Of a stretch of DNA of 64,000 nt, positions 32,597-52,832 are shown one piece after another; positions within the stretch are counted from its first letter, which is position 1, and the number at the start of each line of letters is the position of its first letter. A program made the position numbers and the translations under genes. This DNA is from Plantibacter sp. Leaf314. Its GTDB lineage: Bacteria > Actinomycetota > Actinomycetes > Actinomycetales > Microbacteriaceae. The DNA lies in contig NZ_LMOB01000001.1 in the NCBI RefSeq assembly GCF_001423185.1, positions 1-64,000 of the forward strand. Direction: 5' to 3'. The notes beneath the pieces were generated by a model, which saw only the letters and a program-made list of their open reading frames with translations, did no database searches and was not told the origin of the DNA.

Positions 32597-33886
32597 ATGA
32601 TCGACGAGGATCTGCGGGTCCGGCTCGCCGACCTCGGCGGGTTCGACACGGAACGCGGTTCGCTCGCCGGGGTCGTCGTGGTCGACGTGACCCGGGTCGT
32701 CGCCGGGCCGTACTGCTCGATGGTCCTCGCGGACCTCGGAGCCACGGTGATCAAGGTCGAACACCCGGACGAACCCGACTACACCCGCACGTTCCCGCCG
32801 TTGCTGCCGGCTGCGGACGACGCCGACGGGCAGCCGGTCGAGGACCCGGCGCTCAGCGGGTTCTTCGCACAGTACAACCGCAACAAGCTCGGCGTCACGG
32901 CCAACCTCCGGCACCCGTCCGGCGCCGCGCTCCTCGAACATCTGGTGGCCAGGGCCGACGTCCTCGTCGAGAACTTCCGACCGGGCACGATGGACCGGCT
33001 CGGGCTCGGGTACGAGCGGCTCCGAGAGGTCAACCCGCGCCTCGTCTACGCCGCGCTCAGCGGATACGGCCAGACCGGACCGTCCCGTGGTCGACCGGCC
33101 TACGACAACAGCGCCCAGGCGACCGGAGGTCTCTGGTCGATGAACGGGCCGGCCGGTGGCCCACCGACACGGGTCGGCACGATCATCGGCGACCTCGCGG
33201 CCAGTCTCTACGGCACCATCGGCGTCCTCGCTGCACTCCGACACGCCGAGAGCACCGGGGACGGGCAGCTCGTCGACATCTCGCAGCAGGACTCGGTGCT
33301 CACCCTGACCGAGAACGCCGTCGTGGCGTATACGACCGAGGGCACGATGCCGACCCCGCTCGGCAACGCCCACCCGTTCGTGCGCCCGTACGAGGCGTTC
33401 CCCTGCCGGGACGGCTTCGTTTTCTTCGGCGGGTACACCGACAAGTTCTGGAAGCTGTCCTGCGAGCTGTTCGGCGGTCCGGACGAGTACGAGGCCCATC
33501 CGGACCTCCAGGCGATGGCGGACCGGTTCGACGAGGAGGTCTACGAGCGGGCGGTCCGTCCGATCATCGAGCGCTGGTTCGCGGATCGCACGAAGGCGGA
33601 ACTGGAGGCGCTCGCCGGGGACCTCGTCCCGCTCAGTGCCGTCAAGGACATCGGCGAGGTGGTAGCCGACCCGCAGATCGTCGCCAGGGACATGGTCGTC
33701 GAGACCGCCTACCCGGGCTTCGGCCCGCTCCGGACGTTCGGTTCCCCCGTCAAGCTGCAGGGAACCCCACCGCGGACGACCGGCCGGGCGCCGGCGACCG
33801 GGGCCCACACGGCCGCGGTCCTCCGGGAGCTGCTCGACTACGATCAAGCAGCCATCGACGAGCTCCGCTCCGCCGGGACCATCTGA
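32597..33886 (+). CDS. CaiB/BaiF family (family III) CoA-transferase
   Basis: Family III enzymes move CoA between carboxylic acids through an enzyme-bound aspartyl anhydride. The 429-residue product shows VVVVDVTRVVAGPYCSMVLADLGATVIKVE at the N-terminus and the catalytic Asp170 in RPAYDNSAQATGG, at the same position as in formyl-CoA transferase. It overlaps the enoyl-CoA hydratase start by one base (TGATG), so the two act together. It likely activates a free acid to its CoA ester using an acyl-CoA donor. An alpha-methylacyl-CoA racemase role is less likely but possible. Confidence 0.88.
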   Translation: MIDEDLRVRLADLGGFDTERGSLAGVVVVDVTRVVAGPYCSMVLADLGATVIKVEHPDEPDYTRTFPPLLPAADDADGQPVEDPALSGFFAQYNRNKLGVTANLRHPSGAALLEHLVARADVLVENFRPGTMDRLGLGYERLREVNPRLVYAALSGYGQTGPSRGRPAYDNSAQATGGLWSMNGPAGGPPTRVGTIIGDLAASLYGTIGVLAALRHAESTGDGQLVDISQQDSVLTLTENAVVAYTTEGTMPTPLGNAHPFVRPYEAFPCRDGFVFFGGYTDKFWKLSCELFGGPDEYEAHPDLQAMADRFDEEVYERAVRPIIERWFADRTKAELEALAGDLVPLSAVKDIGEVVADPQIVARDMVVETAYPGFGPLRTFGSPVKLQGTPPRTTGRAPATGAHTAAVLRELLDYDQAAIDELRSAGTI

Positions 33887-34665
33887 TGGACGGCGTCCGC
33901 CTCGACCGCTCCGGAGCGACGGCCGTCATCACCATCGATCGCCCGGACAAGCTCAACGCGCTGACCCTCGCGATGTACGACCAGCTCGGCGCGGCGTTCG
34001 CCGAGGTCCGCGACGATCCCCGGATCGGCGTCGCGATCCTGACGGGGGCGGGGGAGCGGGCGTTCTGCGTCGGCGCAGACCTCGGGGAGTCGATCCCTGC
34101 GCTGGCCGAGGGGCGATTCGACATCAGCGAGTGGGACGCCGCCCACCAGAAGCACACCACCCTCGACAAACCGGTCATCGGGGCGGTCAACGGCCTCTGC
34201 CTCGGAGGCGGGTTCGAGATCCTGCTGTCCACCGACATCCGTGTCGCCGCCGACCACGCGACGTTCGCGCTGCCCGAGACGGGGATCGGTGTGGTGCCTG
34301 CAGGAGGCACCCTCAGCCGGTTGGTGCGTCAGATCCCGTACGCCTTCGCCATGGACCTCATGTTGCGCGGCGGGCGGATCGACGCTGCGACGGCCGCCCG
34401 GTACGGCATCGTCAACCAGGTGGTCCCGGCCGCCGAGCTGACGGACACCGCGCACCGCCTCGCGGACGAGCTCCTCGCGCGGAGCGGTGCCGCGCTCGCC
34501 ACGGTCAAACGTGCGGTGCGGGAGCTGTCCGCGTTGCCGCTGGAGGAGGCCTTCCACCGTGAGGCGGTGCTCGGACAGGCCGCGTTCACGAGCGACGACG
34601 CACGGGCCGGCCTGGCGGCGTTCGCCGCGCGCACGCCACCGGTCTTCCCCTCACGGGCGTCCTAG
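33886..34665 (+). CDS. Enoyl-CoA hydratase/isomerase family protein
   Basis: The 259-residue crotonase-fold protein keeps both catalytic glutamates of true hydratases: Glu111 (GGGFEILLS) and Glu131 (LPETGIGVVPAGGT), twenty residues apart as in the mammalian enzyme. The oxyanion-hole glycine in GLCLGGG is present. It should hydrate a 2-enoyl-CoA or work in reverse. It is translationally coupled to the CoA-transferase, which suggests the acid activated there is the enoyl substrate or the hydroxyacyl product. Confidence 0.88.
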   Translation: MDGVRLDRSGATAVITIDRPDKLNALTLAMYDQLGAAFAEVRDDPRIGVAILTGAGERAFCVGADLGESIPALAEGRFDISEWDAAHQKHTTLDKPVIGAVNGLCLGGGFEILLSTDIRVAADHATFALPETGIGVVPAGGTLSRLVRQIPYAFAMDLMLRGGRIDAATAARYGIVNQVVPAAELTDTAHRLADELLARSGAALATVKRAVRELSALPLEEAFHREAVLGQAAFTSDDARAGLAAFAARTPPVFPSRAS

Positions 34666-34721: not shown

Positions 34722-36668
34722 ATGCGTCCCCCGACCGCTTCCGACGACGTCCGCGCGGACGTCGAGCCCTCCTCGGCGACCGCGACGTTCGCGCTCGACC
34801 TCCTCGCCGCCTCCCGCGCGGAGCCGGGACGCCCGGGCGCCGGCGTCGAGGAGCTCCTCAGCCGGGCGGGACTCGACGGGGCCGACGCCGAGGCCGTGGT
34901 CGAGTCCGTCCGCGAAGCACAGGTACGGGGTGCACGGCAGCGCCGTCGGGCGAGCGAGCTCGAGGCGCTCTTCTCCACCGCTCGCGAGCTGGTCCGCCTC
35001 CAGGACGTCGACGAGGTCCTCGGCCGTCTCGTGGAACGGGCCCATCAGCTCATGGGCACCGACGTCACGTACCTCTCCGAGGTCGAGAACACCAGGGGTG
35101 ACCTCCGCGTCCGGCACTCCGTCGGCACGGTGACCCCGGGGTTCCGGGACCTCGCGGTGCCCGCCGGGGTGGGACTCGCCAGCCTGGTCGCCGGCACGCG
35201 GGAACCCGCCTGGGTCGCACGGTACGAGACGATGACCGAGGCCGGGCACGACGACCGCATCGATGCCGCCGTCCGGGCCGAAGGACTCGTGTCGTTCCTC
35301 GGCGTCCCGCTCGCGGTCGGTGACGAGGTGCTCGGTGCGTTGTTCGCGTGCAACCGCTTCGGCTACGACTACACCCCGGACGACGTCCTCCTGCTCTCCG
35401 CCTTCGCCGACCACGCCGCGGCGGTCCTGCACACCGCACGGGCGCTCGCCGAACGTGCTGCGGCCGTCGTGCGCGCCGAGGAGGCTTATCGCGAACTGGA
35501 GCGACACCTCGCCGCCACGGAGCTGGCGAGCGGTATCCACGAAGAGCTCACCTCGGCGGCGATGTCGGGCGGGACCGTCGTGGACCTCGTCGCCACCGTG
35601 TCGCGCCGGATCGGTCTGCGGGTGTGGGTGCTCGACGACCAGGCACGACTGCTCGACGGCACGGGGGAGCTGCCGAGCCGTGCCGTCCTCCGCGACGCGG
35701 TCGCCCGGAGTCAGGTGAGCGGGCACGCCGAAGCGGTCGAGGCTCGGGATCGCGCGTGGCTCGTCGTGGCGATCGTGGGCGCCGACCGGGTGCTCGGGTC
35801 CATCCTCGCGGAGGACGGAACCGATCCCGCCGACCGGGTCGTCCGACGCACCCTGGAACGGGCCGCCCAGGTCGCCGCCCTGGTCTCCTTCAAACGCGAC
35901 GCCGTGGTCGCCCTGCGCGCCGAGCGTCGTGCGCACTGGCTCCTGGCCGTCGTCGACGGCGGTGCCTCGGAGCCGTCAGCGGACGTCGAGCCCGCTCTGC
36001 TCGCGCTGACGCTCGGGGCGTGCGCCGTGATCGACGTGTTGGAGCGGGACGTCGCCGATGCGGCGTTCGTCGCCGCCGGTGCCGTCGGCGATGACGGCGT
36101 CGTCGCCCGCCGCGACCATCGGGTGATCATCGCCTGGGCGGTCGACGATGCGATCGAGGCCACCGAGCGGGTCCGGCGGCTGCTGGCCGACCGGCTGCAC
36201 GAGCCGGCGCTCACCGCGGTGGTCTGTACCGGGCTGCTCGGCCGGGCGGACCTCGGGCCCGCGGTCGAGCGAGCCGCCGCCGATCTGCGGTTCCTGCGAC
36301 CGCTCGGCATCGAGGCCACCACGGTCCCCTCCGCCGGTCTCGCGCCGTACCACGCGCTCTCCTCCGGGGAGCCGACCTCGGTGATCCGTTTCGTCGACGA
36401 GCTCCTCGGGCCGGTGCTCGGGTGGGACGAACGTCGTGGGACCGCGCTCTTCGACACCCTCGCCTGCTACTTCGACGGCGGTGAGAGCCGGCACGCCGTT
36501 TCGAAACGACTCCGGATCCACCCGAACACCGTGCAGCAACGGCTGGATCGCATCCGGTCCCTCCTCGTCGGCGACTGGGACGACAGCGAGTTCCGGTTCC
36601 GGGTGCAGGCGGCCGCCCGACTCGAACGCCTCCGACGCTCCCTGCGTGAGGCCCATCCGACGAGCTGA
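34722..36668 (+). CDS. GAF-domain regulator with PucR-type C-terminal HTH
   Basis: The 648-residue protein has a GAF sensor domain (about 80-245; LEALFSTARELVRLQDVDEVLGRLVERAHQLMG at its start), a linker domain, and a C-terminal PucR-type HTH (about 570-640; RLRIHPNTVQQRLDRIRSLL). PucR regulators usually activate catabolic genes in response to substrates such as purines or amino acids. A paralogue with the same layout lies at 43651 on the other strand. The pair brackets the oxidase and ABC transporter, so these genes are the likely targets. Confidence 0.85.
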   Translation: MRPPTASDDVRADVEPSSATATFALDLLAASRAEPGRPGAGVEELLSRAGLDGADAEAVVESVREAQVRGARQRRRASELEALFSTARELVRLQDVDEVLGRLVERAHQLMGTDVTYLSEVENTRGDLRVRHSVGTVTPGFRDLAVPAGVGLASLVAGTREPAWVARYETMTEAGHDDRIDAAVRAEGLVSFLGVPLAVGDEVLGALFACNRFGYDYTPDDVLLLSAFADHAAAVLHTARALAERAAAVVRAEEAYRELERHLAATELASGIHEELTSAAMSGGTVVDLVATVSRRIGLRVWVLDDQARLLDGTGELPSRAVLRDAVARSQVSGHAEAVEARDRAWLVVAIVGADRVLGSILAEDGTDPADRVVRRTLERAAQVAALVSFKRDAVVALRAERRAHWLLAVVDGGASEPSADVEPALLALTLGACAVIDVLERDVADAAFVAAGAVGDDGVVARRDHRVIIAWAVDDAIEATERVRRLLADRLHEPALTAVVCTGLLGRADLGPAVERAAADLRFLRPLGIEATTVPSAGLAPYHALSSGEPTSVIRFVDELLGPVLGWDERRGTALFDTLACYFDGGESRHAVSKRLRIHPNTVQQRLDRIRSLLVGDWDDSEFRFRVQAAARLERLRRSLREAHPTS

Positions 36669-36795: not shown

Positions 36796-36813
36796 CATGA
36801 GGGAGCACCACGG

Positions 36814-37974
36814 ATGGAATCATTCGACGTCGCGGTTGTCGGCATGGGAGCCCTCGGCAGTGCGGCCGCCTACCACCTCGCCAGGCGGGGTGCGAAGGTC
36901 GTCGCCTTCGAACAGTTCGAGCTCGGACACGTTCGCGGTGCCTCCCACGACACCTCGCGGATCGTCCGGACGTCGTACGGCGCACCCCAGTACGTGCGGC
37001 TCGCGCAGTCGGCCTACCGTGACTGGGCGGACCTGGAGCAGGAGTCGGGCGAACGGCTGCTCACCATCACCGGTGGCGTCATCTTCCTCCCGGTCGACGG
37101 ACCCTACTCCGCCTCCGACTTCACCGCGGCGCTCGAGGAGTGCGGTGTGCCGCACGAACTCCTGACGCCCGCCGAGGTGCAGGAACGGTGGCCGCAGTTC
37201 CGGATCCCGGAGAACGTCGAGACGGTGTACACCGCGGACACCGGTATCGCCCATGCCGCCCGCACCGTGGCCACGCTCCAGCTCCGAGCTCGGGCGCTCG
37301 GCGCCGACATCCGCGACCGCACGCGGGTCGACGCCCTCATTCCGGACGGACAGGGCGTCGTCGTGCAGACCTCGGCCGGCACCGTCCGCGCCGGCAAGGT
37401 CGTCCTCGCCGCCGACGCCTGGGCGAACGAACTCCTCGAACCCCTCGGCGCGGCGATCCCGCTCGACGTCATGCAGGAGCAGGTCACCTACTTCCGCCCA
37501 TCGGACGCCGAGCTGCTCGACCGCGAGCGGTTCCCGGTGTGGATCTGGGAGGACGAGGAGTGCTACTACGGGTTCCCGACCTTCGGCGAACCGACCGTGA
37601 AGGCCGCCCGTGACGTCTCGGAGAACCGCATGTCGCCGGCCGAGCGCACCTTCGTGCCGTCGCCGGAGCTCACCGGACAGCTGGCCGACTTCATGGCGGA
37701 CCTCGTGCCGGCGTCCGGACCGGAACTCCGCACCGTGACCTGTCAGTACGCGCTCACCCCCGACCGGAACTTCGTCCTCGGCCCGCTCGACGAGCATCCC
37801 GACGTCATCGTCGCCCTCGCCGCCGGGCACGGATTCAAGTTCACGCCCGCGTTCGGCCGGATCCTCGCGGAGCTCGCCCTCGACGGTGAGACGAGCGACG
37901 ACGTCTCGAGCTTCCGCCCGTCGCAGGCACGCCGTGCCGACCGCGTCTCACCGATGCCGATCTCCGCGAGCTGA
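36814..37974 (+). CDS. Sarcosine/N-methyl-amino-acid oxidase family flavoenzyme
   Basis: The 386-residue protein has the FAD loop VVGMGALGSAAAYHLARRG, the GASHDTSRIVRTSYG segment and RLAQSAYRDWADLE, all typical of monomeric sarcosine and N-methyltryptophan oxidases. Cys310 (CQYALTPDRNF) matches the cysteine that binds FAD covalently in that group, and AGHGFKFTPAFG follows. It should oxidise a secondary amine to an aldehyde or ketone, releasing peroxide. It is followed by an ABC importer six bases on, which probably brings in the amine. Confidence 0.88.
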   Translation: MESFDVAVVGMGALGSAAAYHLARRGAKVVAFEQFELGHVRGASHDTSRIVRTSYGAPQYVRLAQSAYRDWADLEQESGERLLTITGGVIFLPVDGPYSASDFTAALEECGVPHELLTPAEVQERWPQFRIPENVETVYTADTGIAHAARTVATLQLRARALGADIRDRTRVDALIPDGQGVVVQTSAGTVRAGKVVLAADAWANELLEPLGAAIPLDVMQEQVTYFRPSDAELLDRERFPVWIWEDEECYYGFPTFGEPTVKAARDVSENRMSPAERTFVPSPELTGQLADFMADLVPASGPELRTVTCQYALTPDRNFVLGPLDEHPDVIVALAAGHGFKFTPAFGRILAELALDGETSDDVSSFRPSQARRADRVSPMPISAS

Positions 37975-37979: not shown

Positions 37980-38930
37980 ATGGCGCGATACCTCGTCTCA
38001 CGGATCCTGTCGTCGCTGTTCGTCCTGTTCGTCCTCTCCGTCCTCGTGTTCTCGATGGTGCGGGTCATCCCGGGCGACCCGCTGTCGGCGTTCGCGGACC
38101 CCTCGAACCCCGACCCCGCGGCGCTCGACGCCCTCCGCACCGAACTCGGCCTCGACCGGCCCTGGTTGACCCAGTACCTCGTCTGGCTGCTCGGCGTGCT
38201 GCAGGGGGACTTCGGCCGGGCCATCACCGTCCCGAACGAGGTCTCCAACCTCATCGCCCAGCGCCTCCCACTCAGCCTCACCCTCGCCGTCATGGCGACG
38301 CTGTTCGGGACGGTGCTCGGCATCCCGGCCGGGGTGCTCGCCGCGACCCGGTGGCGTCGGGCACCGGACAACACCGTCCGCGGGCTGTCCTTCGTGCTCC
38401 TCGCGACCCCGCCGTTCGTCCTCGGAACCGTCCTCATCCTCGTGAACTCCCTCACCCTGCGACTCCCGCTCGTCGGCACGGCCGGCGCGAGCGGCGATCC
38501 GTTACGCCTCGTGGGGGTGCTCGTCCTGCCCGCCCTGCTCATCGGGCTCGTGCTGGCGGCGATCGTCGCCCGGTACACCCGCGGCACCCTGCTCGACACG
38601 CTCGGCCAGGACTTCGTCCGGACCGCCAGGGCCAAGGGGGCGTCGCCGTCCCGACTGGTCGGCCGACATGCGCTGCGCAACGCGCTCATCCCCGTCACGA
38701 CCGTCATCGGGATCGAGCTCGCCGCGCTCGTCGGCGGGACGGTCGTCATCGAGACCGTGTTCGCGCTCCCGGGGATGGGCTCGCTCCTCCTCACCGGCAT
38801 CCGCTCATCGGACTACCCGATCATCCAGGCGACCGTCCTGCTCATCGGCGCGGTCTACGTGCTCATCAACTTCATCGTCGATCTCATCTACCCGCTGATC
38901 GACCCACGAGTGAGGGTCCACACGTCATGA
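37980..38930 (+). CDS. Peptide-type ABC transporter permease (DppB-like)
   Basis: The 316-residue membrane protein has six predicted helices and the permease loop DFVRTARAKGASPSRLVGRHALRNALIP, which contacts the ATPases. The long periplasmic-type segment after helix 1 (PGDPLSAFADP through LGLDRPWLTQYL) is diagnostic of DppB/OppB. It is the first gene of a five-gene importer and overlaps the second permease by four bases. Confidence 0.92.
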   Translation: MARYLVSRILSSLFVLFVLSVLVFSMVRVIPGDPLSAFADPSNPDPAALDALRTELGLDRPWLTQYLVWLLGVLQGDFGRAITVPNEVSNLIAQRLPLSLTLAVMATLFGTVLGIPAGVLAATRWRRAPDNTVRGLSFVLLATPPFVLGTVLILVNSLTLRLPLVGTAGASGDPLRLVGVLVLPALLIGLVLAAIVARYTRGTLLDTLGQDFVRTARAKGASPSRLVGRHALRNALIPVTTVIGIELAALVGGTVVIETVFALPGMGSLLLTGIRSSDYPIIQATVLLIGAVYVLINFIVDLIYPLIDPRVRVHTS

Positions 38931-39910
38931 CGGTCACCCGCGCCATCGCGCTCGCAACGGTCGCCGGCAGACGCCGACGCCGCAACCGGTTCGGCCCCGC
39001 CTTCTGGAGCGGATCCATCATCCTCGTCGGCATCCTCCTGCTCGCCGCCTGGATGACCCTCGCACCGCCACACGACCCGTTCGCGGCGTCCGGGCCGGCA
39101 CTCGCCGGGCCGAGCCTCGACCATCTCCTCGGCACCGACAACCTCGGCCGCGACAACCTCACCCGGCTGGCGCTCGCCGCGCGGACCAGCCTGCTCATCT
39201 CGGGGGCCGCCGCGCTGCTCGGCGCCGTCATCGGGACGGCCCTGGGGCTCGTGGCCGGGTACCTCGGCGGCTGGGTCGACGCGATCATCATGCGGATCGT
39301 GGACGCGGCGCTCGCCCTGCCGGCGATCCTCGTCGCCCTCGTGGTCGGGGTCGTCATCGGCACCGGGCCCTGGCCGCTCATCATCGCGCTGGGTCTCGTC
39401 TTCGCTCCGGGCTTCGCCCGCGTCATGCGGGCCCCGGTCATCGCCCTGCGCGAACGGGACTTCGTCCTCGCGGCGACGCTGAGCGGCGTGCGTGGACACC
39501 GGGTGATCGCCGAACACCTGTTGCCCAACGTGCTGACGCCGCTGTTCGTGCAGTTCGCCTCCGTCGCCTCACAGGTGGTCCTCATCGAGGCCGCCCTCAG
39601 CTACCTCGGGCAGGGCGTCCAGGCCCCCGAGCCATCGGCCGGTCGCATGATCAGCGAGTTCACGCGGTTCATGCAGGTGCAGCCGCTGCTGATCATCCTC
39701 CCCTCCCTCGTGATCATCCTGCTGTCGGCGGCGTGGAACCTCCTCGCCGACGGGCTGCAGGACTACTTCGCGCCGAGACGGGAACCCGCCTTCTCGCTCG
39801 GTCGCCCACGCCGGCGACGGGCAGCCGCGGCAGCACAGCACGGTACGTCATCCAGCACCACCATCGACGCGGCGTCCACGGACGACGCTCCAGAGAAGAG
39901 GCAGCAATGA
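38927..39910 (+). CDS. Peptide-type ABC transporter permease (DppC-like)
   Basis: In 327 residues it has an N-terminal helix, then the DHLLGTDNLGRDNLTRL segment and five further helices with RDFVLAATLSGVRGHRVIAEHLLPN as the EAA loop; these define DppC/OppC. The last 45 residues are a charged tail not seen in typical members. It overlaps both neighbours by four bases (ATGA). Confidence 0.92.
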   Translation: MTVTRAIALATVAGRRRRRNRFGPAFWSGSIILVGILLLAAWMTLAPPHDPFAASGPALAGPSLDHLLGTDNLGRDNLTRLALAARTSLLISGAAALLGAVIGTALGLVAGYLGGWVDAIIMRIVDAALALPAILVALVVGVVIGTGPWPLIIALGLVFAPGFARVMRAPVIALRERDFVLAATLSGVRGHRVIAEHLLPNVLTPLFVQFASVASQVVLIEAALSYLGQGVQAPEPSAGRMISEFTRFMQVQPLLIILPSLVIILLSAAWNLLADGLQDYFAPRREPAFSLGRPRRRRAAAAAQHGTSSSTTIDAASTDDAPEKRQQ

Positions 39911-41478
39911 AGACTCGCATCCTCGCGGGGACGGTCGCCATCGTGGCGGCGTCCCTCGCGCTCAGCGGCTGTGCGCCGGCCGGTCCCGCCGGCGACACGG
40001 GCGGCGACCCCGTCGCCGGCGGCACCCTCCACTGGGGCGTCCCGGCCGAACCGTCCGCGGGCGGTCTCGACCCGATGGCCGCCAGTGCGATCGCCGCCGA
40101 GGTCATCAACGCGGTCGCCTACGACACGCTCCTCGCGAAGGACGACGACGGTGAGGTCGTCCCCGCCCTCGCCACCGAGTGGTCCCAGCCGGACGAGCTC
40201 ACCTGGGTGTTCGAGCTGCGTGACGACGTCACCTTCGCCGACGGCAGTGCGTTCAGCGCCGACGACGTCGTCTACTCCTTCAAGCTGATGAAGGAGGCGA
40301 CCACCTCCGCGAGCACGTATCTCGCGAACGTCTCGAGCATCGAGAAGACCGGCGACACCCAGGTCACGTTCCGGTTCAGCGCACCGGACGGCACGTTCCT
40401 GGACGCCGTGTCCGCCCGCCAGACGTTCTTCATCGTGAGCGAAGAAGGGTACGGGGCTGCGACGCCCGACGAGCGGCAACGGACGACCTTCGGGACCGGC
40501 GCGTTCCAGGTGACCGACTGGAGCGACGGTGTCAGCGTCACGATGGAGAAGAACGAGAACGCCTGGCAGGACACGAAGCCGTACCTCGACGAGATCGTCT
40601 TCGACTTCATCCCCGACGAGTCCGCGCGCCTCGCCGCGCTGCAGCAGGGGAGCATCCAGGCCGCGTACTTCATCGACGGCAGCCTCGCCGATCAGGCCGT
40701 CCAGGCGGGCTTCACCCTCGGCGAGGCCTCCTACCGTCAGAACCTCGCCATCTACATCAACCCGGAGACCGGGCCGCTCGCCGACATCGACGTCCGTCGG
40801 GCCGTCGCGCTGTCCCTCGACCGCCAGGCGCTCGTCGACACGGCGATGCTCGGTTACGCCGCGCTCTCGTTCGTGCCCCCGGCCGGTGACCCCGGTGCCC
40901 TCGACCCGGCAGGCCTGCCCTACTACGAGCGCGACGTCGACCAGGCGAAGCAGCTCCTCGCCGACGCCGGCCAGCCGAACCCGACCATCACGCTCAGCTA
41001 CATGGGCGACATCGCGCAGTCGCACCACCCCGTCTACGAGATGATGCAGCAGCAGCTCGCCGAAGCGGGGATCACCCTGAAGCTCGACGCGAAGCCGCTG
41101 TCGGAGATCGCTCCAGTCTTCACGACCGGCGAGAGCTGGACGGACCTCGTCGCCATCCCGGGCAGCCCCCGCGCCGCGTCGCTGTTCTACTACGACCCCG
41201 TCCTCGTCGACGGCGGCGTGTACAACCACTGGGAGGGCAACCCCGAGGCGGACGCCGCACGAGAACTGTTCCAGCAGGCGAAGAGCGCCTCGGACCCGGC
41301 GGAGTACGCGAAGCTCGTCGACCAGCTGGCGGAAGAGGCGGCCGAGCAGGTGCTGGAGATCGTGCCGGTCGCGGTCCCCGTCTACTTCGAGGTCTGGGAC
41401 AGCGCGAAGCTGCACGACTACCAGAGCGACGCGTACTACTCCCGGTACCGGCTCGACGAGGCCTGGCTGAGCCAGTAG
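39907..41478 (+). CDS. Peptide-type ABC transporter substrate-binding lipoprotein
   Basis: The 523-residue protein starts with a lipoprotein signal (MKTRILAGTVAIVAASLALSG then Cys21) and has the SBP_bac_5 fold: GGTLHWGVPAEP, LATEWSQPDELTWVFELRDDVTFADG and FSADDVVYSFKL. This family binds di- and oligopeptides, opines, nickel complexes or other amides. It gives the importer its specificity, but which ligand cannot be read from sequence. It lies at the heart of the amine/amide cluster. Confidence 0.92.
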   Translation: MKTRILAGTVAIVAASLALSGCAPAGPAGDTGGDPVAGGTLHWGVPAEPSAGGLDPMAASAIAAEVINAVAYDTLLAKDDDGEVVPALATEWSQPDELTWVFELRDDVTFADGSAFSADDVVYSFKLMKEATTSASTYLANVSSIEKTGDTQVTFRFSAPDGTFLDAVSARQTFFIVSEEGYGAATPDERQRTTFGTGAFQVTDWSDGVSVTMEKNENAWQDTKPYLDEIVFDFIPDESARLAALQQGSIQAAYFIDGSLADQAVQAGFTLGEASYRQNLAIYINPETGPLADIDVRRAVALSLDRQALVDTAMLGYAALSFVPPAGDPGALDPAGLPYYERDVDQAKQLLADAGQPNPTITLSYMGDIAQSHHPVYEMMQQQLAEAGITLKLDAKPLSEIAPVFTTGESWTDLVAIPGSPRAASLFYYDPVLVDGGVYNHWEGNPEADAARELFQQAKSASDPAEYAKLVDQLAEEAAEQVLEIVPVAVPVYFEVWDSAKLHDYQSDAYYSRYRLDEAWLSQ

Positions 41479-45468: not shown

Positions 45469-45493
45469 CGGGTCTCCTGACTGGTCCCTCAGG

Positions 45494-45499
45494 AGTCTA
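45494..45499 (-). promoter_or_regulatory. Putative -10 box of second GAF-PucR gene
   Basis: On the minus strand the hexamer is TAGACT, 25 bases before the ATG. It matches the -10 box of the paralogous gene. Confidence 0.4.
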
Positions 45500-45592
45500 A
45501 GGTGATCGTCCGTCGAGAGGCGTGTGTCATCCACCCACACGATCGCAGATCCACTGAGTCATCCGCCCATCGTCGTCGATGATCCCCGCTCG

Positions 45593-45652: not shown

Positions 45653-46927
45653 ATGCCGAGAAACAGCCGAATCCAGGGGCTGCGCGACCACACCACCGAG
45701 GAGCGACTCGAGCTCGTCGCCGAGGGTGCCGGCGTGCCGGTCGGGGCGCTCGCCGCCCTGCATCCCGACGCCGGGCTGTCGATCGCCCAAGCGGACCACC
45801 TGGTCGAGAACGTCGTCGGCGTCATCGCCATCCCGGTGGGTGTCGCCACCAACTTCACCGTCGACGGCGAGGATCGCCTCGTCCCCATGGCGACGGAGGA
45901 ACCCAGCGTCGTCGCCGCGGCCTCCAACGCAGCCCGGATCGCGCGGGTGCACGGCGGGTTCCGCACCTCGTCGTCGGGTGACGTGATGATCGCGCAGATC
46001 CAGATCCTCGACGCGGTCGACCCGCACGCCGCACGACTCCGGGTCCTGGAGGCGCGCGAGGAACTGCTCGCCCTCGCGAACGAGCTGGACCCGATCCTCG
46101 TCTCCTTCGGCGGGGGTGCCAGGGACATCGAGGTCCGGGTCTTGCCGACGCGGGTGGGCACCCAGGTCATCGTCCACCTCCACGTCGACGTCCGTGACGC
46201 CATGGGCGCGAACGCCGTCAACACCATGGCGGAGGCGATCGCACCGCGTCTCGCCGAGATCGCCGGCTCGCGCACCCTCCTGCGGATCCTGACGAACAAG
46301 GCCGACCAGCGCATCACCCGCGCCAGGGCCGTGTTCGACGCCGAACTCCTCGGCGGACCACAGGTGGTCGCAGACATCGTCGCCGCGAGCGCCTTCGCCG
46401 AAGCCGACCCGTACCGGGCGGCCACGCACAACAAGGGCATCATGAACGGCATCACCGCCGTCGTCCTCGCCACCGGCAACGACACCCGCGCGGTCGAGGC
46501 GGGCTGCCACTCCCACGCCGCGCGGTCCGGCCGGTACTCGGCGCTGTCGCAGTTCGAACAGGACGCCGACGGGAACCTGGTCGGCACGATCGAGGTCCCG
46601 CTGGCCGTCGGGCTCGTCGGGGGAGCCACGAAGGCGCACCCGACCGCGCAGGCGGGCGTCACCCTCCTCGGCGTCGAGACGGCCAGGGAACTGGCGGCCG
46701 TCATCGCCTCCGTCGGCCTCGCCCAGAACCTGGCCGCCTGTCGTGCGCTCGCCGCGGAGGGTATCCAGCGCGGCCACATGACCCTGCACGCGAGGACGAT
46801 CGCGGCGAGCGCCGGTGCGACGGTGGACGAGATCGGCGCGGTGGCGGCGCGGATCGTCGCCGACCGTCGGATCCGGGTCGAGTACGCGCGCGAGGTCCTC
46901 GACGAGCTCCGGGCCGGAACCGCATGA
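45653..46927 (+). CDS. mvaA: Hydroxymethylglutaryl-CoA reductase, class II (degradative type)
   Basis: It interconverts mevalonate plus CoA and HMG-CoA using NAD(P). The 424-residue protein closely follows the Pseudomonas mevalonii enzyme: LVENVVGVIAIPVGVATNF, TEEPSVVAAASNAARIAR and RDAMGANAVNTMAEAIAP. The catalytic residues are Glu83 (EEPS), Lys261 (HNKGIMNG), Asp277 (GNDTRAVEAG) and His375 (RGHMTLHAR), with spacing like the known enzyme. Class II forms in mevalonate users run in the oxidative direction. The start has GAAGGGCGAG upstream. It overlaps the lyase gene by four bases, repeating the mvaAB layout. Confidence 0.93.
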   Translation: MPRNSRIQGLRDHTTEERLELVAEGAGVPVGALAALHPDAGLSIAQADHLVENVVGVIAIPVGVATNFTVDGEDRLVPMATEEPSVVAAASNAARIARVHGGFRTSSSGDVMIAQIQILDAVDPHAARLRVLEAREELLALANELDPILVSFGGGARDIEVRVLPTRVGTQVIVHLHVDVRDAMGANAVNTMAEAIAPRLAEIAGSRTLLRILTNKADQRITRARAVFDAELLGGPQVVADIVAASAFAEADPYRAATHNKGIMNGITAVVLATGNDTRAVEAGCHSHAARSGRYSALSQFEQDADGNLVGTIEVPLAVGLVGGATKAHPTAQAGVTLLGVETARELAAVIASVGLAQNLAACRALAAEGIQRGHMTLHARTIAASAGATVDEIGAVAARIVADRRIRVEYAREVLDELRAGTA

Positions 46928-47904
46928 GCGGGCTCCCGCGGCCACAGGTGGAGCCGGTCGACGGGCTGCCGACGCGTGTGCGCGTGTACGAGGTGGCGCC
47001 GCGTGACGGGTTGCAGGCCGAGACGGACATCCTGCCCACCGCGGTGAAGGCGGAGCTGTGTCGGCGCCTGTACGAGGCGGGGTCGCGCGATCTCGAGGTG
47101 ACGAGTTTCGTGCCGGCCACCTGGATCCCGCAGTTCGCGGATGCGGAACGACTCGTCGCGGAGCTCGAGGTGCCGTCGGGGGCCCGTGCCGTCGCCCTCG
47201 TGCCGAACCTGCGAGGCCTGCATCGTGCGTTGGACGCGGGCATCCGTGCGGTGTCGGTGGTCGTCAGCGCCTCGGAGTCCTTCGCGCGGGCGAACCTCAA
47301 CACCTCGCGCGAGGGCGCCATCGAACGGGCCGAGGAGGTCGTGGCGGCGGCGACTGCCGCCGACGTCCCGGTCCGCGGCTACGTGTCGATGGCGTTCGGC
47401 GATCCGTGGGAGGGTGCCGTGGATCCGGCGACGGTCGTCGACGCGGTCGTGCGTCTGCACCGTGCCGGATGTTCGACGGTCGCGATCAGCGACACGATCG
47501 GTGTGGGGACCCCGGGGCTCACGACGCGGATGGTCCGGGACGTGCTCGACGCGGGGATCCCCGTGGATGCGGTCGCGCTGCACCTGCACGACACCTACGG
47601 TCAGGGGCTCGCGAACGTGTATGCGGCGCTCTCGCTCGGGGTCGCGGAGTTCGACTCGTCCGTCGGAGGCCTGGGTCGGTGCCCGTACGCGAAGGGTGCC
47701 ACCGGTAACCTCGCCACGGAGGACCTCGTGTGGATGCTCCACGGTCTCGGCATCGAGACCGGTCTCGACCTCGACGCCCTCGCCGCGACGACCGCCTGGC
47801 TGTCGCGCGTCCGGGGCGTCGGAGCCCCGTCGAGCGTGGCGACGGCCTTCGCGGCCGCAGCGTCATCGGTCGACACCCCGAACGCCACTGGAGGCAGCAG
47901 ATGA
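46924..47904 (+). CDS. mvaB: Hydroxymethylglutaryl-CoA lyase
   Basis: It splits HMG-CoA to acetyl-CoA and acetoacetate. In 326 residues the TIM-barrel signature is plain: EVAPRDGLQAE (catalytic Arg, Asp), SDTIGVGTPG, His220 and His222 in HLHDTYGQGL, and the active-site Cys253 in GGLGRCPYAKGATGN. One change is the second Gly of the usual GGLGGCP to Arg. It overlaps the reductase by four bases, so the two products are made together. Leucine catabolism also uses this lyase, but none of its other genes is here. Confidence 0.93.
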   Translation: MSGLPRPQVEPVDGLPTRVRVYEVAPRDGLQAETDILPTAVKAELCRRLYEAGSRDLEVTSFVPATWIPQFADAERLVAELEVPSGARAVALVPNLRGLHRALDAGIRAVSVVVSASESFARANLNTSREGAIERAEEVVAAATAADVPVRGYVSMAFGDPWEGAVDPATVVDAVVRLHRAGCSTVAISDTIGVGTPGLTTRMVRDVLDAGIPVDAVALHLHDTYGQGLANVYAALSLGVAEFDSSVGGLGRCPYAKGATGNLATEDLVWMLHGLGIETGLDLDALAATTAWLSRVRGVGAPSSVATAFAAAASSVDTPNATGGSR

Positions 47905-48575
47905 GGCACACCGACGAGTACGTGCTCGACGACGTCGAGGCGGTGCGCGCCCTCGTGCGTGAACACCCCTGGGCCACGGTGGTCAGTCACGTGCCGGGTC
48001 GGGGTCTCGTCTCCTCGCACTACCCGATGCTGCTCGACGAGGACGAGGACGGGATCGTCCTCCTCAGCCACGTCGGGCGTCCGGACGAGCGGCTGCACGA
48101 GCTCGGACAGCATGAGGCGATGGTGATCGTCTCCGGCCCACAGGGGTACGTGTCGCCGAGTTGGTACGACACGACGCCGGCGGTGCCCACCTGGAACTTC
48201 GCGGTCGCCCACCTGTACGGTGTGCCCGAGCTGCTGTCCGACGAGGAGAACCTGCGGGTGCTCGACCGCCTCGTGGCCCACTTCGAGCGGGTCCTGCCCG
48301 AGCCGTACCTGATGAACGGGACGATCGCGAACAGCGAGTACGCGGCCCGGATCGTCCACGGCACCGTCGGCTTCCGCATGCGCGTGACCCGGATCGAGGC
48401 CAAGGAGAAGATGAGTCAGGACAAGCCGGCCGAGGTCGTGGAGCGCGTGATCGCGGCCCTCGGCGAGCCGGGACCGTATCGGAATCCGGCGCTGGCGGCA
48501 CGGATGGGCGCGATCCACGGCATCGGCACCGGAGCCGCCGCGGCGACCACCGACGGCGGGGTGGCGGCATCGTGA
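47901..48575 (+). CDS. PaiB-like FMN-binding family protein
   Basis: The 224-residue protein has the FMN_bind_2 motifs of the PaiB family: VREHPWATVVSHVPGRGLVSSHYPMLL, HVGRPDERLHEL, GPQGYVSPSWY and PTWNFAVAHLYG. PaiB was described in Bacillus as a negative regulator of sporulation and protease genes, but the fold suggests a flavin enzyme. Its position between HMG-CoA lyase and amidohydrolase genes, with four-base overlaps on both sides, ties it to this pathway. Confidence 0.85.
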   Translation: MRHTDEYVLDDVEAVRALVREHPWATVVSHVPGRGLVSSHYPMLLDEDEDGIVLLSHVGRPDERLHELGQHEAMVIVSGPQGYVSPSWYDTTPAVPTWNFAVAHLYGVPELLSDEENLRVLDRLVAHFERVLPEPYLMNGTIANSEYAARIVHGTVGFRMRVTRIEAKEKMSQDKPAEVVERVIAALGEPGPYRNPALAARMGAIHGIGTGAAAATTDGGVAAS

Positions 48576-50041
48576 CGGACGCGGCGCTGACGCTGCTGAA
48601 CGCGCGGCCGTACGGCCAGGATCCCGTCGACCTCGTGATCCGCGACGGTCGCATCGCCGGAATCGGCCCGGCAGGGACCCTCGAGACCGCCGGGGAGGTC
48701 GTCGACGTCGCCGGCCGCAGCATCGGGCCGGGCCTGTGGGACGCCCACGTCCACCTGACCCAGTGGGTGATCCAGCGGCGTCGGATCGACCTGACGGAGA
48801 CCGCGAGCGCCGCCGACGTCCTGGCAGCCGTCCGTCGCGCGGTCGACACCGGTGCACCGCTCACCGACGGATTCCTCATGGGGTACGGCTTCCGAGACGG
48901 CCTGTGGGCGCAGCCGGCGACGCTCGCCGCGTTGGAGGCCACCGAGTCGGACCTCCCCGTGATCCTCGTCAGCGGTGACCTGCACTGCGCGTGGATGAAC
49001 ACCCGGGCCGCGCACCGGCTCGGCCTGGAGCTCGACGCGAGCGGTGTCGTCGCCGAAGCACCGTGGATCGACGCACTGCAACGGATCGACCAGCACTCGG
49101 GGCTCGCCGTCCACGCCTATCGCGACGCCGCCGAGGACGCAGCGCGACGCGGTGTCGTCGGCGTCGTCGAATTCGAGAACACCGACAACCTCGGTGAGTG
49201 GTCCGAGCGCATCGCCGGCGGGGCGACGAGCCTGCGGATCGAGGCCGCCGCCTGGCCGGACCGCCTCGAATCCGTCATCGCGGCCGGTCTCCGTACCGGG
49301 GACCCGATCGACCCGGCTGGCCTCCTCACCATGGGCCGCCTGAAGGTCGTCGTCGACGGTTCCCTCAACACGCGGACCGCCTGGTGCTGGGACCCGTACC
49401 CGGGTGCCGATCCGTCGAGCCCGCACGCCTGCGGCGTCGAGAGCGTCTCGATCGACGAGCTGCGCCGGCTGTTGGAGCGTGCGAGGGGCGCCGGGATCGA
49501 GGCTGCCGTGCACGCCATCGGCGACCGTGCCAACACCGAGGTCCTCGACACCTTCGAAGCGCTGGGGATGCGCGGGGTCGTCGAACACGCGCAGCTCGTG
49601 CGCGAGGAGGACTTCGCCCGGTTCGCCGAGCTCGGACTCATCGCGAGCGTGCAACCCGAGCACGCGATGGACGACCGCGACGTCGCCGATCGCCACTGGA
49701 GCGGCCGCACGGGTCGCGCCTTCGCCTTCGGATCGCTGCACCGTGCCGGGGTCGGGCTCCGGCTCGGATCCGACGCCCCGGTCTCGCCGCTGGACCCGTG
49801 GCAGGCGATCGCCGCCGCGACGACCAGGAGTCGCGACGGCCGCGACGCCTGGCACCCCGAACAACGGCTCCCGATGGACGTCGCCCTCACGGCGAGCGTG
49901 CGGACGTCGATCGCGGTCGGACAACCCGCCGACCTCGTCATCACCGACCTCGACCCGCTCAGCACCGACCCCGAGCGGTTGCGGTCGATGCCGGTGTCCG
50001 CGACCCTGCTCGGCGGCCGCTTCACGTGGAGGGCCATCTGA
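48572..50041 (+). CDS. YtcJ-like amidohydrolase
   Basis: In 489 residues it has the metal-dependent hydrolase fold: GLWDAHVHL (two metal His) near 55-65, a Lys in KVVVDGSLNTRTAW, His in VHAIGDRANTEVLD and VVEHAQLVREEDF, and Asp in GSDAPVSPLDPW. The family (amidohydrolase 3) cleaves amide or related bonds, with few known substrates. It starts with GTG overlapping the PaiB-like stop. Together with the next two genes it makes a set of three hydrolases. Confidence 0.87.
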   Translation: MTDAALTLLNARPYGQDPVDLVIRDGRIAGIGPAGTLETAGEVVDVAGRSIGPGLWDAHVHLTQWVIQRRRIDLTETASAADVLAAVRRAVDTGAPLTDGFLMGYGFRDGLWAQPATLAALEATESDLPVILVSGDLHCAWMNTRAAHRLGLELDASGVVAEAPWIDALQRIDQHSGLAVHAYRDAAEDAARRGVVGVVEFENTDNLGEWSERIAGGATSLRIEAAAWPDRLESVIAAGLRTGDPIDPAGLLTMGRLKVVVDGSLNTRTAWCWDPYPGADPSSPHACGVESVSIDELRRLLERARGAGIEAAVHAIGDRANTEVLDTFEALGMRGVVEHAQLVREEDFARFAELGLIASVQPEHAMDDRDVADRHWSGRTGRAFAFGSLHRAGVGLRLGSDAPVSPLDPWQAIAAATTRSRDGRDAWHPEQRLPMDVALTASVRTSIAVGQPADLVITDLDPLSTDPERLRSMPVSATLLGGRFTWRAI

Positions 50042-51654
50042 TGCGCGGGTCGCAGCTGTTCAGCAACGCGCGGGTCTTCACCGGCACCGACGAGACGGGG
50101 TTCGCCTCGGCGTTCCGCATCGTCGACGGACGCTTCGACTGGGTGGGCGATGCGGCGGACGTCGCGGGCGAGCCCGCCGTCGACCTCGGCGGGCGGACGG
50201 TGCTGCCCGGCCTCATCGACAGCCACACCCATCCGGCGCTCATGGCCGCCACCGCCGTGGCAGCCGAGTGCTTCCCGCCGTCCGTGGTGTCGATCACCGG
50301 CCTCGTCGACCGCCTCCGCGAGCACGCGGCGACCCTGACCTCAGCGAGCGCCTGGGTCCTCGGTCGCGGCTTCGACGACACGAAGTTCCCCGAGGGACGC
50401 ATGCCGACGGCGGCGGACCTCGACGCCGTGTCCACCGAGCGGCCCGTCCTCGTCTGGCGTTGCGACGCCCACTCCGCCGTTTGCAACAGCGCGGCGCTCA
50501 GACTCGCGGGCATCACCGCCACGACACCCGACCCGCCCGGCGCGCGCTTCGAACGTGGACCGGCCGGCGAACCGAACGGCGTCCTCACCGAGATCGCCGC
50601 GGTCGAGGCCGTCTCGCGGTTCATCCCGGTCCCGGAGCGCGAGGAACAGCGCGCATCGTTGGTGGCGATCGGCGAGGAACTGGCGTCCCGCGGGATCGTG
50701 GCGGTGTGCGACCTGCTGTCGAACCGTCTGCACGACCCCCTCGATGCCTTCCGGAGCGCCGCCGATCAGGGCCTGCGCACCCGGGTCGCCCTCTACCCGG
50801 GGTGGGATCCGTCCGCGCCGCTCGCCGAGCTGACCGAGGACGACCGCGAGGGTCGGATCCGCATCGGCGGGGTCAAGGTCGTCCTCGACGGGGCCTACTC
50901 GAACCGCACGGCCTGGGTCGCCGAACCATACCCGGAATCCTGCGACCACGGACTCCGCCTCGTCGACGACGAGGACGTCCTCGCCGCAGGCGCCTGGGCT
51001 CGCCGCAACGGCGTCCAGCTCGCCGTGCACGCCATGGGCGACCGCGCGCTCGACCGCGTCGCGAGCCTCTTCGAACACGAGGAACCCTGGCTCGACGGGA
51101 TCCCGTCGGTCCGGATCGAGCACGCCACCATCATCAGCGAGCCCTACGCCGAACGACTCCGGTCCGCTCGGATGACGTTCGGGATCGCCACCCACACCGT
51201 CTTCTTCTTCGCCGAGTACGACGGGTACGAGCTGGCCCTGCGCGCCGAACAGGTGCCGGACGCCTACCCGATCGCGCGGCTGTACCGCACGATCGAACCG
51301 CTCGCGCTGTCTTCGGACCGTCCCGCGACCGCGTGGAGTGGCGCGGACGACGTCATGCTGAGCGTGGAGGCCGCGGTCCGACGCCAGGCCTACAACGGCG
51401 CCGACTTCGTCCCGGCCGAGGCGATCAGTGTCGCCCAAGCACTGCTGCTGTACACCGGACGGGCCGCGCTGCTCTCGCCCCTCGAGGGCGTCGGCCGGAT
51501 CGCTCCCGGATACGACGGCAGCTTCGCCGTCCTCGACCGTGACGTCTTCAGCGTGCCCACGGACGAGATCGCCGCCGTGCGGGTCGCCGAGACGTGGATC
51601 GACGGTGAGCAGGTGTACCGGCGTCCGCCGGAGGACGAGGAGGACCGGACATGA
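50041..51654 (+). CDS. YtcJ-like amidohydrolase (second copy)
   Basis: The 537-residue protein has GLIDSHTHPALMAATAV (metal His pair), GVKVVLDGAYSNRTAW, VHAMGDRALDRV and RIEHATIISEPY. The final SD-x-P stretch reads SSDRPATAWSGADDVM rather than the SDAPV of its neighbour, so the two copies are diverged and probably act on different substrates. Its ATG shares one base with the previous stop. Like its neighbour it lacks a signal peptide, so the substrate must be imported first. Confidence 0.86.
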   Translation: MRGSQLFSNARVFTGTDETGFASAFRIVDGRFDWVGDAADVAGEPAVDLGGRTVLPGLIDSHTHPALMAATAVAAECFPPSVVSITGLVDRLREHAATLTSASAWVLGRGFDDTKFPEGRMPTAADLDAVSTERPVLVWRCDAHSAVCNSAALRLAGITATTPDPPGARFERGPAGEPNGVLTEIAAVEAVSRFIPVPEREEQRASLVAIGEELASRGIVAVCDLLSNRLHDPLDAFRSAADQGLRTRVALYPGWDPSAPLAELTEDDREGRIRIGGVKVVLDGAYSNRTAWVAEPYPESCDHGLRLVDDEDVLAAGAWARRNGVQLAVHAMGDRALDRVASLFEHEEPWLDGIPSVRIEHATIISEPYAERLRSARMTFGIATHTVFFFAEYDGYELALRAEQVPDAYPIARLYRTIEPLALSSDRPATAWSGADDVMLSVEAAVRRQAYNGADFVPAEAISVAQALLLYTGRAALLSPLEGVGRIAPGYDGSFAVLDRDVFSVPTDEIAAVRVAETWIDGEQVYRRPPEDEEDRT

Positions 51655-52832
51655 CGACGTTCCAGGAGGATGCGACCACACTGCTCGAGGAGCTCGTGGC
51701 CGTCCGGCGCGAACTGCATCAGGCCGTCGAGGTCGGGCTGGACCTGCCGGCGACCCAGCTGATCATCCTGCGCGAGCTGGCCGACCTCGGGCTCGAGATC
51801 ACGACCGGGGACGGCATCTCCTCCGTGGTCGCGGTCCTGCGCGGCGACCTCCCCGGGCCGACCGTCCTCCTCCGAGCCGACATGGACGGGCTGCCCGTCA
51901 CCGAGGCGACCGGGCTCCCGTTCGCCGCGACGTCGGGGGCGATGCACGCCTGCGGTCACGATCTGCACATGGCCGGCCTCCTCGGTGCGGTCCGCCTCCT
52001 CGTGGCCCGTCGCGACCGGCTCGCCGGCACCGTGGTGTTCATGTTCCAGCCCGGTGAGGAGGGGCAGGCTGGCGCCAGGGTCATGCTCGAGGCGGGACTC
52101 CTCGACGTCGCGGGGGAGCGACCCGTCGCCGCCTACGCGCTCCACGTCGACCCCAGCACCCGCCGCGGCGACCTCGTCACCCGGGAGGGCGCGATGATGG
52201 CGAGCGCCAACGCGCTGCGCGTCACCGTCCGTGGGACGGGCGGTCACGCGGCGTTCCCGCATCTCGCCGTCGACCCGGTGCCGGTGGCCGCGCACCTCAT
52301 CCTGGCCGTGCAGACCTTCGCGGCGCGTCGGTTGCCGGCCACCGATCAGGCCGTGATCTCCATCACCCGCCTCGGCAGCGACTCGGAGGCGAGCAACGTC
52401 CTGGCGTCGGCGGTCAGCCTCGAGGCGAACATCCGCACGCTGTCGAAGGCCACGCTCACGACGGTGCGCGAGCAGCTGCCTGAGCTGCTGCGGGCCATCG
52501 CGGACGCGCACGGCTGCACCCTGGAGTCGACGTTCATCGAGTCCTACCCGGTCACCGTCAACGACCCCGCCGAGACACGGTTCGTGCTCGGCACCCTCGA
52601 CGCGCTCGTCGGACCCGACCGGGTCGTCCGGCAGGAGGCCCCGTCGATGGCGTCCGAGGACTTCGCCTACGTGCTCGACGAGGTCCCGGGAACGCTCGTC
52701 TTCGTCGGTGCGGCACCCGAGGGTGGGTCTCCAGCGCTCCATTCGGAACGGGCCGTCTTCGACGACAGCGTCCTGGGCCTCCAGGCCACGGTCCTCGCCG
52801 AGCTCGCGTGGGAGCGGCTCCAGCTGCGCTGA
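51651..52832 (+). CDS. M20D family amidohydrolase (IAA-amino acid/hippurate hydrolase-like)
   Basis: M20D enzymes split N-acyl amino acids, for example hippurate or indole-3-acetyl amino acids. The 393-residue protein has the metal site HACGHD (His99, Cys101, His103), PGEEG (Glu136, Glu137), a His in YALHV, and MASEDFAY and LHSERAVFDDS near the end. The usual RRxxHxxPExxxxE start is altered to RRELHQAVEVGLDLP. It overlaps the previous gene by four bases and ends the cluster. Confidence 0.9.
   Translation: MTTFQEDATTLLEELVAVRRELHQAVEVGLDLPATQLIILRELADLGLEITTGDGISSVVAVLRGDLPGPTVLLRADMDGLPVTEATGLPFAATSGAMHACGHDLHMAGLLGAVRLLVARRDRLAGTVVFMFQPGEEGQAGARVMLEAGLLDVAGERPVAAYALHVDPSTRRGDLVTREGAMMASANALRVTVRGTGGHAAFPHLAVDPVPVAAHLILAVQTFAARRLPATDQAVISITRLGSDSEASNVLASAVSLEANIRTLSKATLTTVREQLPELLRAIADAHGCTLESTFIESYPVTVNDPAETRFVLGTLDALVGPDRVVRQEAPSMASEDFAYVLDEVPGTLVFVGAAPEGGSPALHSERAVFDDSVLGLQATVLAELAWERLQLR

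Follow-up and report, generated by a model that had tools for sequence, protein, structure and literature searches.

The gene island

The stretch analysed here (hereafter the window) comprises the first 64,000 nucleotides of the largest contig of Plantibacter sp. Leaf314 (genome size 3.96 Mb), with a G+C content of about 70%, and harbors between positions 32597 and 52832 an island of catabolic genes that includes a 3-hydroxy-3-methylglutaryl-CoA (HMG-CoA) reductase (HMGR) and an HMG-CoA lyase (HMGL). In this block 17 genes were called from codon-position G+C and Pfam matches (Table 1). A preliminary description had listed a CoA-transferase, a hydratase with both catalytic glutamates, a peptide-type importer, an N-methyl-amine oxidase, three amidohydrolases and a complete mvaAB pair, and all of these parts are present as judged by Pfam and motifs, by model cut-offs and catalytic motifs for the mvaAB pair, and, for the middle one (AH3b) of the amidohydrolases AH3a, AH3b and M20, by solved relatives and metal motifs. 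Beyond that list the island holds a NohD/PaiB-like gene, a small cupin gene and two regulator genes, PucR1 and PucR2. The genes for HMGR, HMGL, the NohD/PaiB-like protein, AH3a, AH3b and the M20 protein follow one another with a 4-base overlap at all five joints. PucR2 lies on the opposite strand and divides the block, which is therefore not a single operon.

Table 1. Genes of the island and a neighboring importer (positions in the window)
Feature	Position	Strand	Evidence and remarks
Class III (CaiB/BaiF-type) CoA-transferase (CoAT), clade A; proposed anhydromevalonate:mevalonyl-CoA CoA-transferase	32597..33886	+	PF02515 400 bits
Crotonase-type enoyl-CoA hydratase (ECH); proposed anhydromevalonyl-CoA hydratase	33886..34665	+	PF00378 204 bits; 1-base overlap with CoA-transferase
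PucR1, GAF-PucR-type regulator	34722..36668	+	PF13556 and PF01590
DAO, FAD-dependent amino-acid/secondary-amine oxidase, monomeric-sarcosine-oxidase-like	36814..37974	+	PF01266 190 bits (longer open reading frame, ORF); NF008425 307 bits
Opp/Dpp-type ABC permease	37980..38930	+	PF00528 140 bits
Opp/Dpp-type ABC permease, second	38927..39910	+	PF00528 102 bits (containing ORF)
Family 5 solute-binding lipoprotein	39907..41478	+	PF00496 241 bits (containing ORF); solved relatives 5u4o, AgaA 6hlx, AapF 7kz8
ABC ATPase, OppD-like	41535..42404	+	PF00005 95 bits; PF08352
ABC ATPase, OppF-like	42401..43174	+	PF00005 125 bits
Small cupin	43211..43636	+	PF07883 52 bits
PucR2, GAF-PucR-type regulator, divergent from HMGR	43651..45540	-	PF13556 and PF13185
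HMG-CoA reductase, degradative type, mvaA-like	45653..46927	+	TIGR00532 427 bits, cut-off 260; motifs
HMG-CoA lyase, mvaB-like	46924..47904	+	NF004283 331 bits, cut-off 246
NohD/PaiB/piperazate-synthase-family protein; proposed heme-dependent N5-hydroxyornithine dehydratase	47901..48575	+	
AH3a, Amidohydro_3 (YtcJ-type) metal hydrolase	48572..50041	+	PF07969 171 bits (containing ORF); metal-ligand motifs
AH3b, Amidohydro_3-like metal hydrolase	50038..51654	+	3icj 2e-30, 3igh 1e-28; metal-ligand motifs
M20 amidohydrolase/peptidase; proposed N-deacylase or dipeptidase	51651..52832	+	PF01546 128 bits; TIGR01891 272 bits, cut-off 154
FecCD-type importer: ATPase, 2 permeases, binding protein	55652..59679	-	PF00005, PF01032 (two), PF01497; possible iron-side partner

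The mevalonate/HMG-CoA end

Inspection of the sequences showed HMGR and HMGL to carry the motifs that we take to be catalytic in these enzymes. The island HMGL is the only one in the genome at E<=1e-20, and a second HMGR is encoded on contig 2, where it adjoins an HMG-CoA-synthase-like gene and lies near frames read by eye as mevalonate kinase, phosphomevalonate kinase and diphosphomevalonate decarboxylase. IspH, which belongs to the other isoprenoid route, is present in the genome as well, so that together with the biosynthetic mevalonate cluster (L205, contig 2, about 371-377 kb) the organism possibly possesses two isoprenoid routes. The preliminary description had read the island as the import and hydrolysis of an N-acyl amine or amino acid with oxidation of the amine part and breakdown of the acyl part through mevalonate and HMG-CoA. 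The latter half of this interpretation stands, given the conserved gene set, the single HMGL and the separate biosynthetic HMGR, and a catabolic island with a degradative HMGR at its mevalonate/HMG-CoA end is well supported. The generic N-acyl amine is not retained.

HMGRs 51-59% identical to that of the window also occur in metagenome-assembled genomes of archaea and Chloroflexota (among L032-L100), mostly without catabolic neighbors, and a biosynthetic HMGR may have been transferred into catabolism.

Conservation of the gene set

Conservation was followed in three samples: the genomes of the family, a sample of the class, and a set of named loci consisting of the best 80 of 588 HMGR relatives, in which HMGR is present by construction. 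The preliminary description had suggested a search for the same gene set elsewhere, and its genes are indeed conserved together in other genera, which makes their grouping more than a chance one; the island is a real, conserved catabolic island. HMGR was found at E<=1e-20 in 16 of 299 family genomes, six of which, at 48-52% identity, may carry other HMGRs. Outside the family, CoAT and ECH lie near HMGR in eight named loci, from Streptomyces, Brevibacterium, Luteimonas, Aquamicrobium, Sciscionella, Conexibacter, Xanthobacter and Pseudonocardia.

The CoA-transferase and hydratase, which had been given no specific place in the preliminary description, track HMGR. In a search that took CoAT and not HMGR as its starting point, CoAT (E<=1e-110) was detected in eight of the 394 genomes of the class sample, the Plantibacter genome included, and all eight are among the 16 with HMGR (E<=1e-90). 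Counted by genus and excluding its own, all four CoAT genera fall within the eight HMGR genera of 137 (probability about 5e-6, ignoring kinship above the genus); the two cut-offs were chosen after the earlier family and locus results, and four candidates were scored per genome. This search missed the CoAT of G498, which tblastn located beside its HMGR, and may have missed others. CoAT was placed within 24 kb of HMGR in 10 of 11 cases, the eleventh being the second copy of the Plantibacter genome itself, at 1.815 Mb.

Genes for DAO, importer, cupin, PaiB-like and AH3 proteins recur with HMGR in other genera in altered orders, 35 chosen loci having been annotated. The most complete island, that of G667, begins with DAO, importer, cupin, PucR2, esterase-like, HMGR, HMGL, clade-B CoAT and MaoC hydratase genes, continues with NohD-like, ornithine cyclodeaminase, AH3a, AH3b, PucR3 and HyuA-like genes, and ends with a second importer, M20, two MFS genes, clade-A CoAT, ECH and PucR1. 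Within the genus, the CoAT-ECH-PucR1 segment is kept at this place in two of five genomes and absent in three, one of which (G266) also lacks the importer and cupin; the clade-A pair is thus a removable module.

The named loci also differ in their transporters. In the 43 with full flanks (37 of the 80 were dropped for a flank shorter than 7.5 kb), TctA genes occur in nine, TRAP-like genes, identified by size and order rather than by family search, in five, and CoAT in eight. None of the eight CoAT loci has a TctA or TRAP-like gene, which are found in 14 of the 35 others, a separation that fits entry of free mevalonate through its own transporter in the simple loci and entry of a conjugate here. 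A gene for a binding protein of the Peripla_BP_6 family occurs in five of the 43, two of them with CoAT; this family lies near degradative HMGRs in Alphaproteobacteria (L029, L033, L042, L045, L068) and is a candidate mevalonate importer.

CoA-transferase and hydratase pairs

The nearest solved structure to the island CoAT is human succinate-hydroxymethylglutarate CoA-transferase (SUGCT, 9br7, 224 bits), whose QRAGYD aligns with RPAYD of the island protein, the aspartate being presumably catalytic. The alignment gave no separation of dicarboxylate from hydroxy-acid specificity, and the protein falls below the cut-offs for succinate-glutarate CoA-transferase (NF052585, 269 of 750 bits), succinyl-CoA:mesaconate CoA-transferase (NF041294, 303 of 700 bits) and the carnitine CoA-transferase CaiB (NF002914, 111 of 413 bits). 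In the adjoining crotonase both glutamates are present, in GGGFE and LPETGIG.

Phylogenetically, the CoATs split into two clades, A and B, each on one side of a 100/100 branch; the tree was drawn with a midpoint root for display only, and so drawn B arises inside A. Clade-A CoATs adjoin a crotonase in 13 of 13 other loci, while clade-B CoATs adjoin a gene for a MaoC/itaconyl-CoA-hydratase-like protein in 10 of 12 loci and lie one gene away from it in the other two (these counts leave out copies below 250 bits, namely Pseudonocardia L091 and a 37% copy in L111, and include the near-copies of the genus itself, L112 and L114). Both clades are represented in the Plantibacter genome, the window copy belonging to A and the copy at 1.815 Mb to B. 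This second locus (L147 8875-14113 on through L204; ~1.8139-1.8323 Mb) comprises genes for the MaoC-type hydratase, clade-B CoAT, a divergent FecCD importer, an Opp importer, a HyuA-like protein, PucR3 and an esterase-like hydrolase.

Water is added to one face of the double bond by crotonases and to the other by MaoC hydratases. From a working-out of priorities, a crotonase acting on Z and a MaoC enzyme acting on E anhydromevalonyl-CoA would both yield (R)-mevalonyl-CoA, and the two pairs would thus suit the cis and trans isomers and deliver the same mevalonate enantiomer; the removable nature of the clade-A pair fits such an isomer specificity. Exchange of CoA from mevalonyl-CoA to anhydromevalonate would moreover free mevalonate for HMGR without ATP cost. 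In G651 and G632, some 0.1 kb separates HMGR from CoAT, the hydratase gene is adjacent, and the best HMGL match is on another contig (52% and 38% identity, respectively), so that the pair goes with HMGR and not with HMGL. Activation of acetoacetate by the class III CoAT was considered and is unlikely, since one operon (G058) has clade-B CoAT and MaoC hydratase together with a 3-oxoacid CoA-transferase (subunit B 322 bits, cut-off 244; subunit A assigned by position and a look at its sequence).

The probable N-hydroxyornithine end

The gene at 47901-48575, annotated as 'FMN-binding', sits inside the mva operon. Its protein belongs by sequence and fold similarity to the fold of NohD, PaiB and the piperazate synthases, which are its nearest solved relatives. 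N-hydroxyornithine is the substrate of piperazate synthases, and according to their entry titles structures of NohD (T98A/K167A mutant) and of a piperazate synthase have been solved with N5-hydroxyornithine. All eight NohD-like copies that were aligned share H60, T100, K171 and K173 (numbering from 47892). Furthermore, an ornithine cyclodeaminase gene lies inside the island in three genomes of two genera, G058 (514 bits, cut-off 350), G258 and G667, the latter two copies being 69-70% identical to the first. The preliminary description had the amine part oxidized as a generic amine; because a NohD/PaiB/piperazate-synthase-family gene lies inside the mva operon, this part is better read as N5-hydroxyornithine, and an N-hydroxyornithine end of the pathway is moderately supported.

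Hydrolases, oxidase and importers

DAO scores above the cut-off for N-methyl-L-tryptophan oxidase (NF008425, 257 bits), has sarcosine oxidases (7exs, 1l9c) as its nearest solved structures, and recurs in the islands of G258, G667, G058, G269, G429 and G409; the small cupin accompanies DAO in islands of other genera (L110, L118, L119, L153). AH3b has no NCBIfam match and was placed through its solved relatives and metal motifs. The complete Opp/Dpp-type importer spans 37980-43174. An esterase-like gene occurs in related islands and at the second Plantibacter locus, its G058 copy lying below the macrolide esterase cut-off (NF052610, 144 of 420 bits). In four genera, Streptomyces (L022), Brevibacterium (L025), Sciscionella (L030) and Conexibacter (L031), genes for HyuAB accompany the CoAT-ECH pair and HMGR, which suggests a variant for a cyclic amide substrate, perhaps with ring or lactam opening. 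A carboxylase identity was rejected for the L022 copies, which are closer to N-methylhydantoinase and caprolactamase and stay under the caprolactamase cut-off.

FecCD-type genes lie 2.8 kb beyond the M20 gene in the window, and about 0.3 kb from clade-B CoAT at the second locus; in G651 they are no more than 6 kb away from the PaiB-like gene. Strong FecCD sites number six in the Plantibacter genome and two in G651, of which two and one, respectively, are beside the system, a pattern noticed post hoc. In the other CoAT-bearing loci examined, E<=1e-15 gave neither a FecCD permease nor a binding protein, and a FecCD gene is present at two loci without CoAT (L068, L121). One FecCD permease of the window has the hydroxamate permease FhuB as its best NCBIfam match, at 281 bits far below the cut-off of 727, and a search for a DtxR-type box gave 0 matches. 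A flavin amine oxidase gene overlapping that of a RibD-C-domain reductase (window 26364-28522, minus strand) is kept near the island within the genus.

Proposed breakdown of a fungal siderophore unit and alternative explanations

The combination of N-hydroxyornithine with an acyl group derived from mevalonate suggests fungal siderophores of the hydroxamate type, such as the fusarinines and coprogens. Fusarinine C, triacetylfusarinine C and coprogen carry anhydromevalonyl on N5-hydroxyornithine (PMC10500206), SidI and SidH convert mevalonate into anhydromevalonyl-CoA, of which SidF of Aspergillus fumigatus takes the cis form (PMC11380514), and both anhydromevalonyl isomers are found among ferrichromes (PMC8781417). 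With a probability of roughly 0.55, the island serves to degrade N5-anhydromevalonyl-N5-hydroxyornithine compounds, the unit of fusarinine and coprogen siderophores, for carbon and nitrogen, the substrate being deduced from the genes that occur together.

The Opp-type importer, possibly together with the nearby FecCD importers, would take up the substrate, and after ester or ring opening, for which the esterase-like gene of related islands and of the second Plantibacter locus is a candidate, the two YtcJ-type amidohydrolases and the M20 enzyme would cut the amide to give anhydromevalonate and N5-hydroxyornithine. A NohD-like dehydration could convert the latter to an imine or pyrroline-5-carboxylate and on to glutamate. 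The class III CoA-transferase would pass CoA from mevalonyl-CoA to anhydromevalonate, the hydratase would add water to regenerate mevalonyl-CoA, and the next exchange would release mevalonate, from which HMGR could form HMG-CoA (mevalonate + CoA + 2 NAD) for cleavage by HMGL to acetoacetate and acetyl-CoA. The second pair elsewhere in the genome, with a MaoC-type hydratase unrelated to crotonase, would serve the other isomer. Only tentatively can this be extended to a complete, previously undescribed bacterial pathway consuming fungal anhydromevalonyl-hydroxamate siderophores, with crotonase and MaoC pairs for cis and trans forms and a NohD-type heme enzyme disposing of N-hydroxyornithine. No bacterial gene set for catabolism of anhydromevalonyl siderophores was found in the literature searched, which comprised titles and abstract openings and left most subscription papers outside.

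Several observations weigh against the siderophore-unit assignment. For the NohD-like protein, PaiB scores no worse than the wild-type NohD entry, and fold comparison did not tell the two apart; with the clade-A pair removable, the need for every part is less certain; and in 9 of 12 loci no more than 100 bases separate clade-B CoAT from HMGL, as would be expected of a hydratase feeding HMG-CoA directly. The latter also speaks for an alternative that is unlikely overall, in which the acyl group stems from 3-methylglutaconate, the acid of ferrichrome A, or from HMG itself, CoAT forms 3-methylglutaconyl-CoA, the hydratase turns this directly into HMG-CoA for cleavage by HMGL, and HMGR serves a separate mevalonate input. 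SUGCT as the best solved CoAT relative agrees with this route, as does the set of clade-B CoAT, itaconyl-CoA-hydratase-like hydratase and lyase, which mirrors itaconate breakdown, and methylglutaconyl is named as a siderophore acyl group in PMC10500206. However, the route leaves HMGR without a task within it, yet HMGR is present in all eight CoAT genomes of the class sample, and the pair adjoins HMGR without HMGL in G651 and G632, while HMGL is missing near three of the eight CoAT loci of the named set (L027, L028, L033).

It is rather improbable that the island handles free mevalonate or anhydromevalonate (or their lactones) next to an unrelated importer, oxidase and amidohydrolases. Nocardia (L023, L044), Rhodococcus (L024), Agrococcus (L026) and Brevibacterium (L046) have simple loci of PucR, HMGR, HMGL and TctA that do resemble plain uptake and oxidation of mevalonate, and the CoAT-ECH-HMGR locus of Luteimonas (L027) has no match to the island amide genes, but in the window the five overlaps bind HMGR, HMGL and the NohD-like gene to the three hydrolases, the recurrence of DAO, importer, cupin, PaiB-like and AH3 genes with HMGR survives changes of order, and TctA and TRAP-like transporters avoid the CoAT loci. 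There is a small chance that the substrate joins a mevalonate-type acid to an amine or an N-methyl amino acid and involves no hydroxamate, DAO oxidizing the amine: this would suit the sarcosine-oxidase-like DAO, which passes the N-methyl-tryptophan-oxidase cut-off in the window and recurs in six islands, and the NohD-like gene could encode a PaiB-type regulator, but it offers no enzymatic role for the NohD-like protein or for the ornithine cyclodeaminase of the sister islands. As HMGR is an enzyme of the mevalonate pathway, a function in isoprenoid biosynthesis was also considered; it is rejected as most improbable, since the protein scores above the cut-off of the degradative model and a second HMGR lies among mevalonate-pathway genes on contig 2, with IspH present besides.

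Siderophore piracy for iron is well known, while little was found at the gene level, in the literature that could be searched, about what becomes of the carbon skeleton of these molecules in bacteria. If the siderophore-unit assignment is true, bacteria would feed on the iron-capture molecule of a rival. The turnover of siderophores in soil and on plants would then become accessible to genetics, NohD/PaiB-type proteins, for which 'FMN-binding' or 'regulatory' is the usual annotation, would have a proposed role in catabolism, anhydromevalonate would reach HMG-CoA by a route that recycles CoA, and the stereochemistry would be cleanly predicted, each hydratase fold taking one particular isomer.

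Comparison with known systems

In Pseudomonas mevalonii, mvaAB is the gene pair for mevalonate catabolism, and the island shares with it a degradative HMGR followed by HMGL in one operon; it differs by the link to a CoAT/hydratase pair, the co-operonic NohD/PaiB-like gene and three hydrolases, the Opp importer and the GAF-PucR regulators. A class III CoA-transferase adjoining a crotonase is also found in the carnitine system, where CaiB and CaiD act with CoA exchange between an unsaturated acid and its hydrated product. The logic is alike, whereas the island proteins, whose pair is linked to HMGR, are no members of these families (CoAT at the CaiB score given above, ECH 179 of 500 bits). Itaconate breakdown employs a CoA-transferase, itaconyl-CoA hydratase and citramalyl-CoA lyase, and the clade-B pair, with its itaconyl-CoA-hydratase-like MaoC protein, stands beside an HMGL-type lyase in related islands; unlike in that system, the island lyase is an HMG-CoA lyase and HMGR is part of the set. 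With the fungal SidI/SidH/SidF route, which leads from mevalonate through anhydromevalonyl-CoA to the siderophore, the island would share its intermediates in reverse, in a bacterial and catabolic setting and with a CoA-transferase instead of a CoA ligase. Finally, in comparison with NohD, PaiB and the piperazate synthases of the heme-binding PaiB fold, the island protein, with its predicted activity, sits in a catabolic operon.

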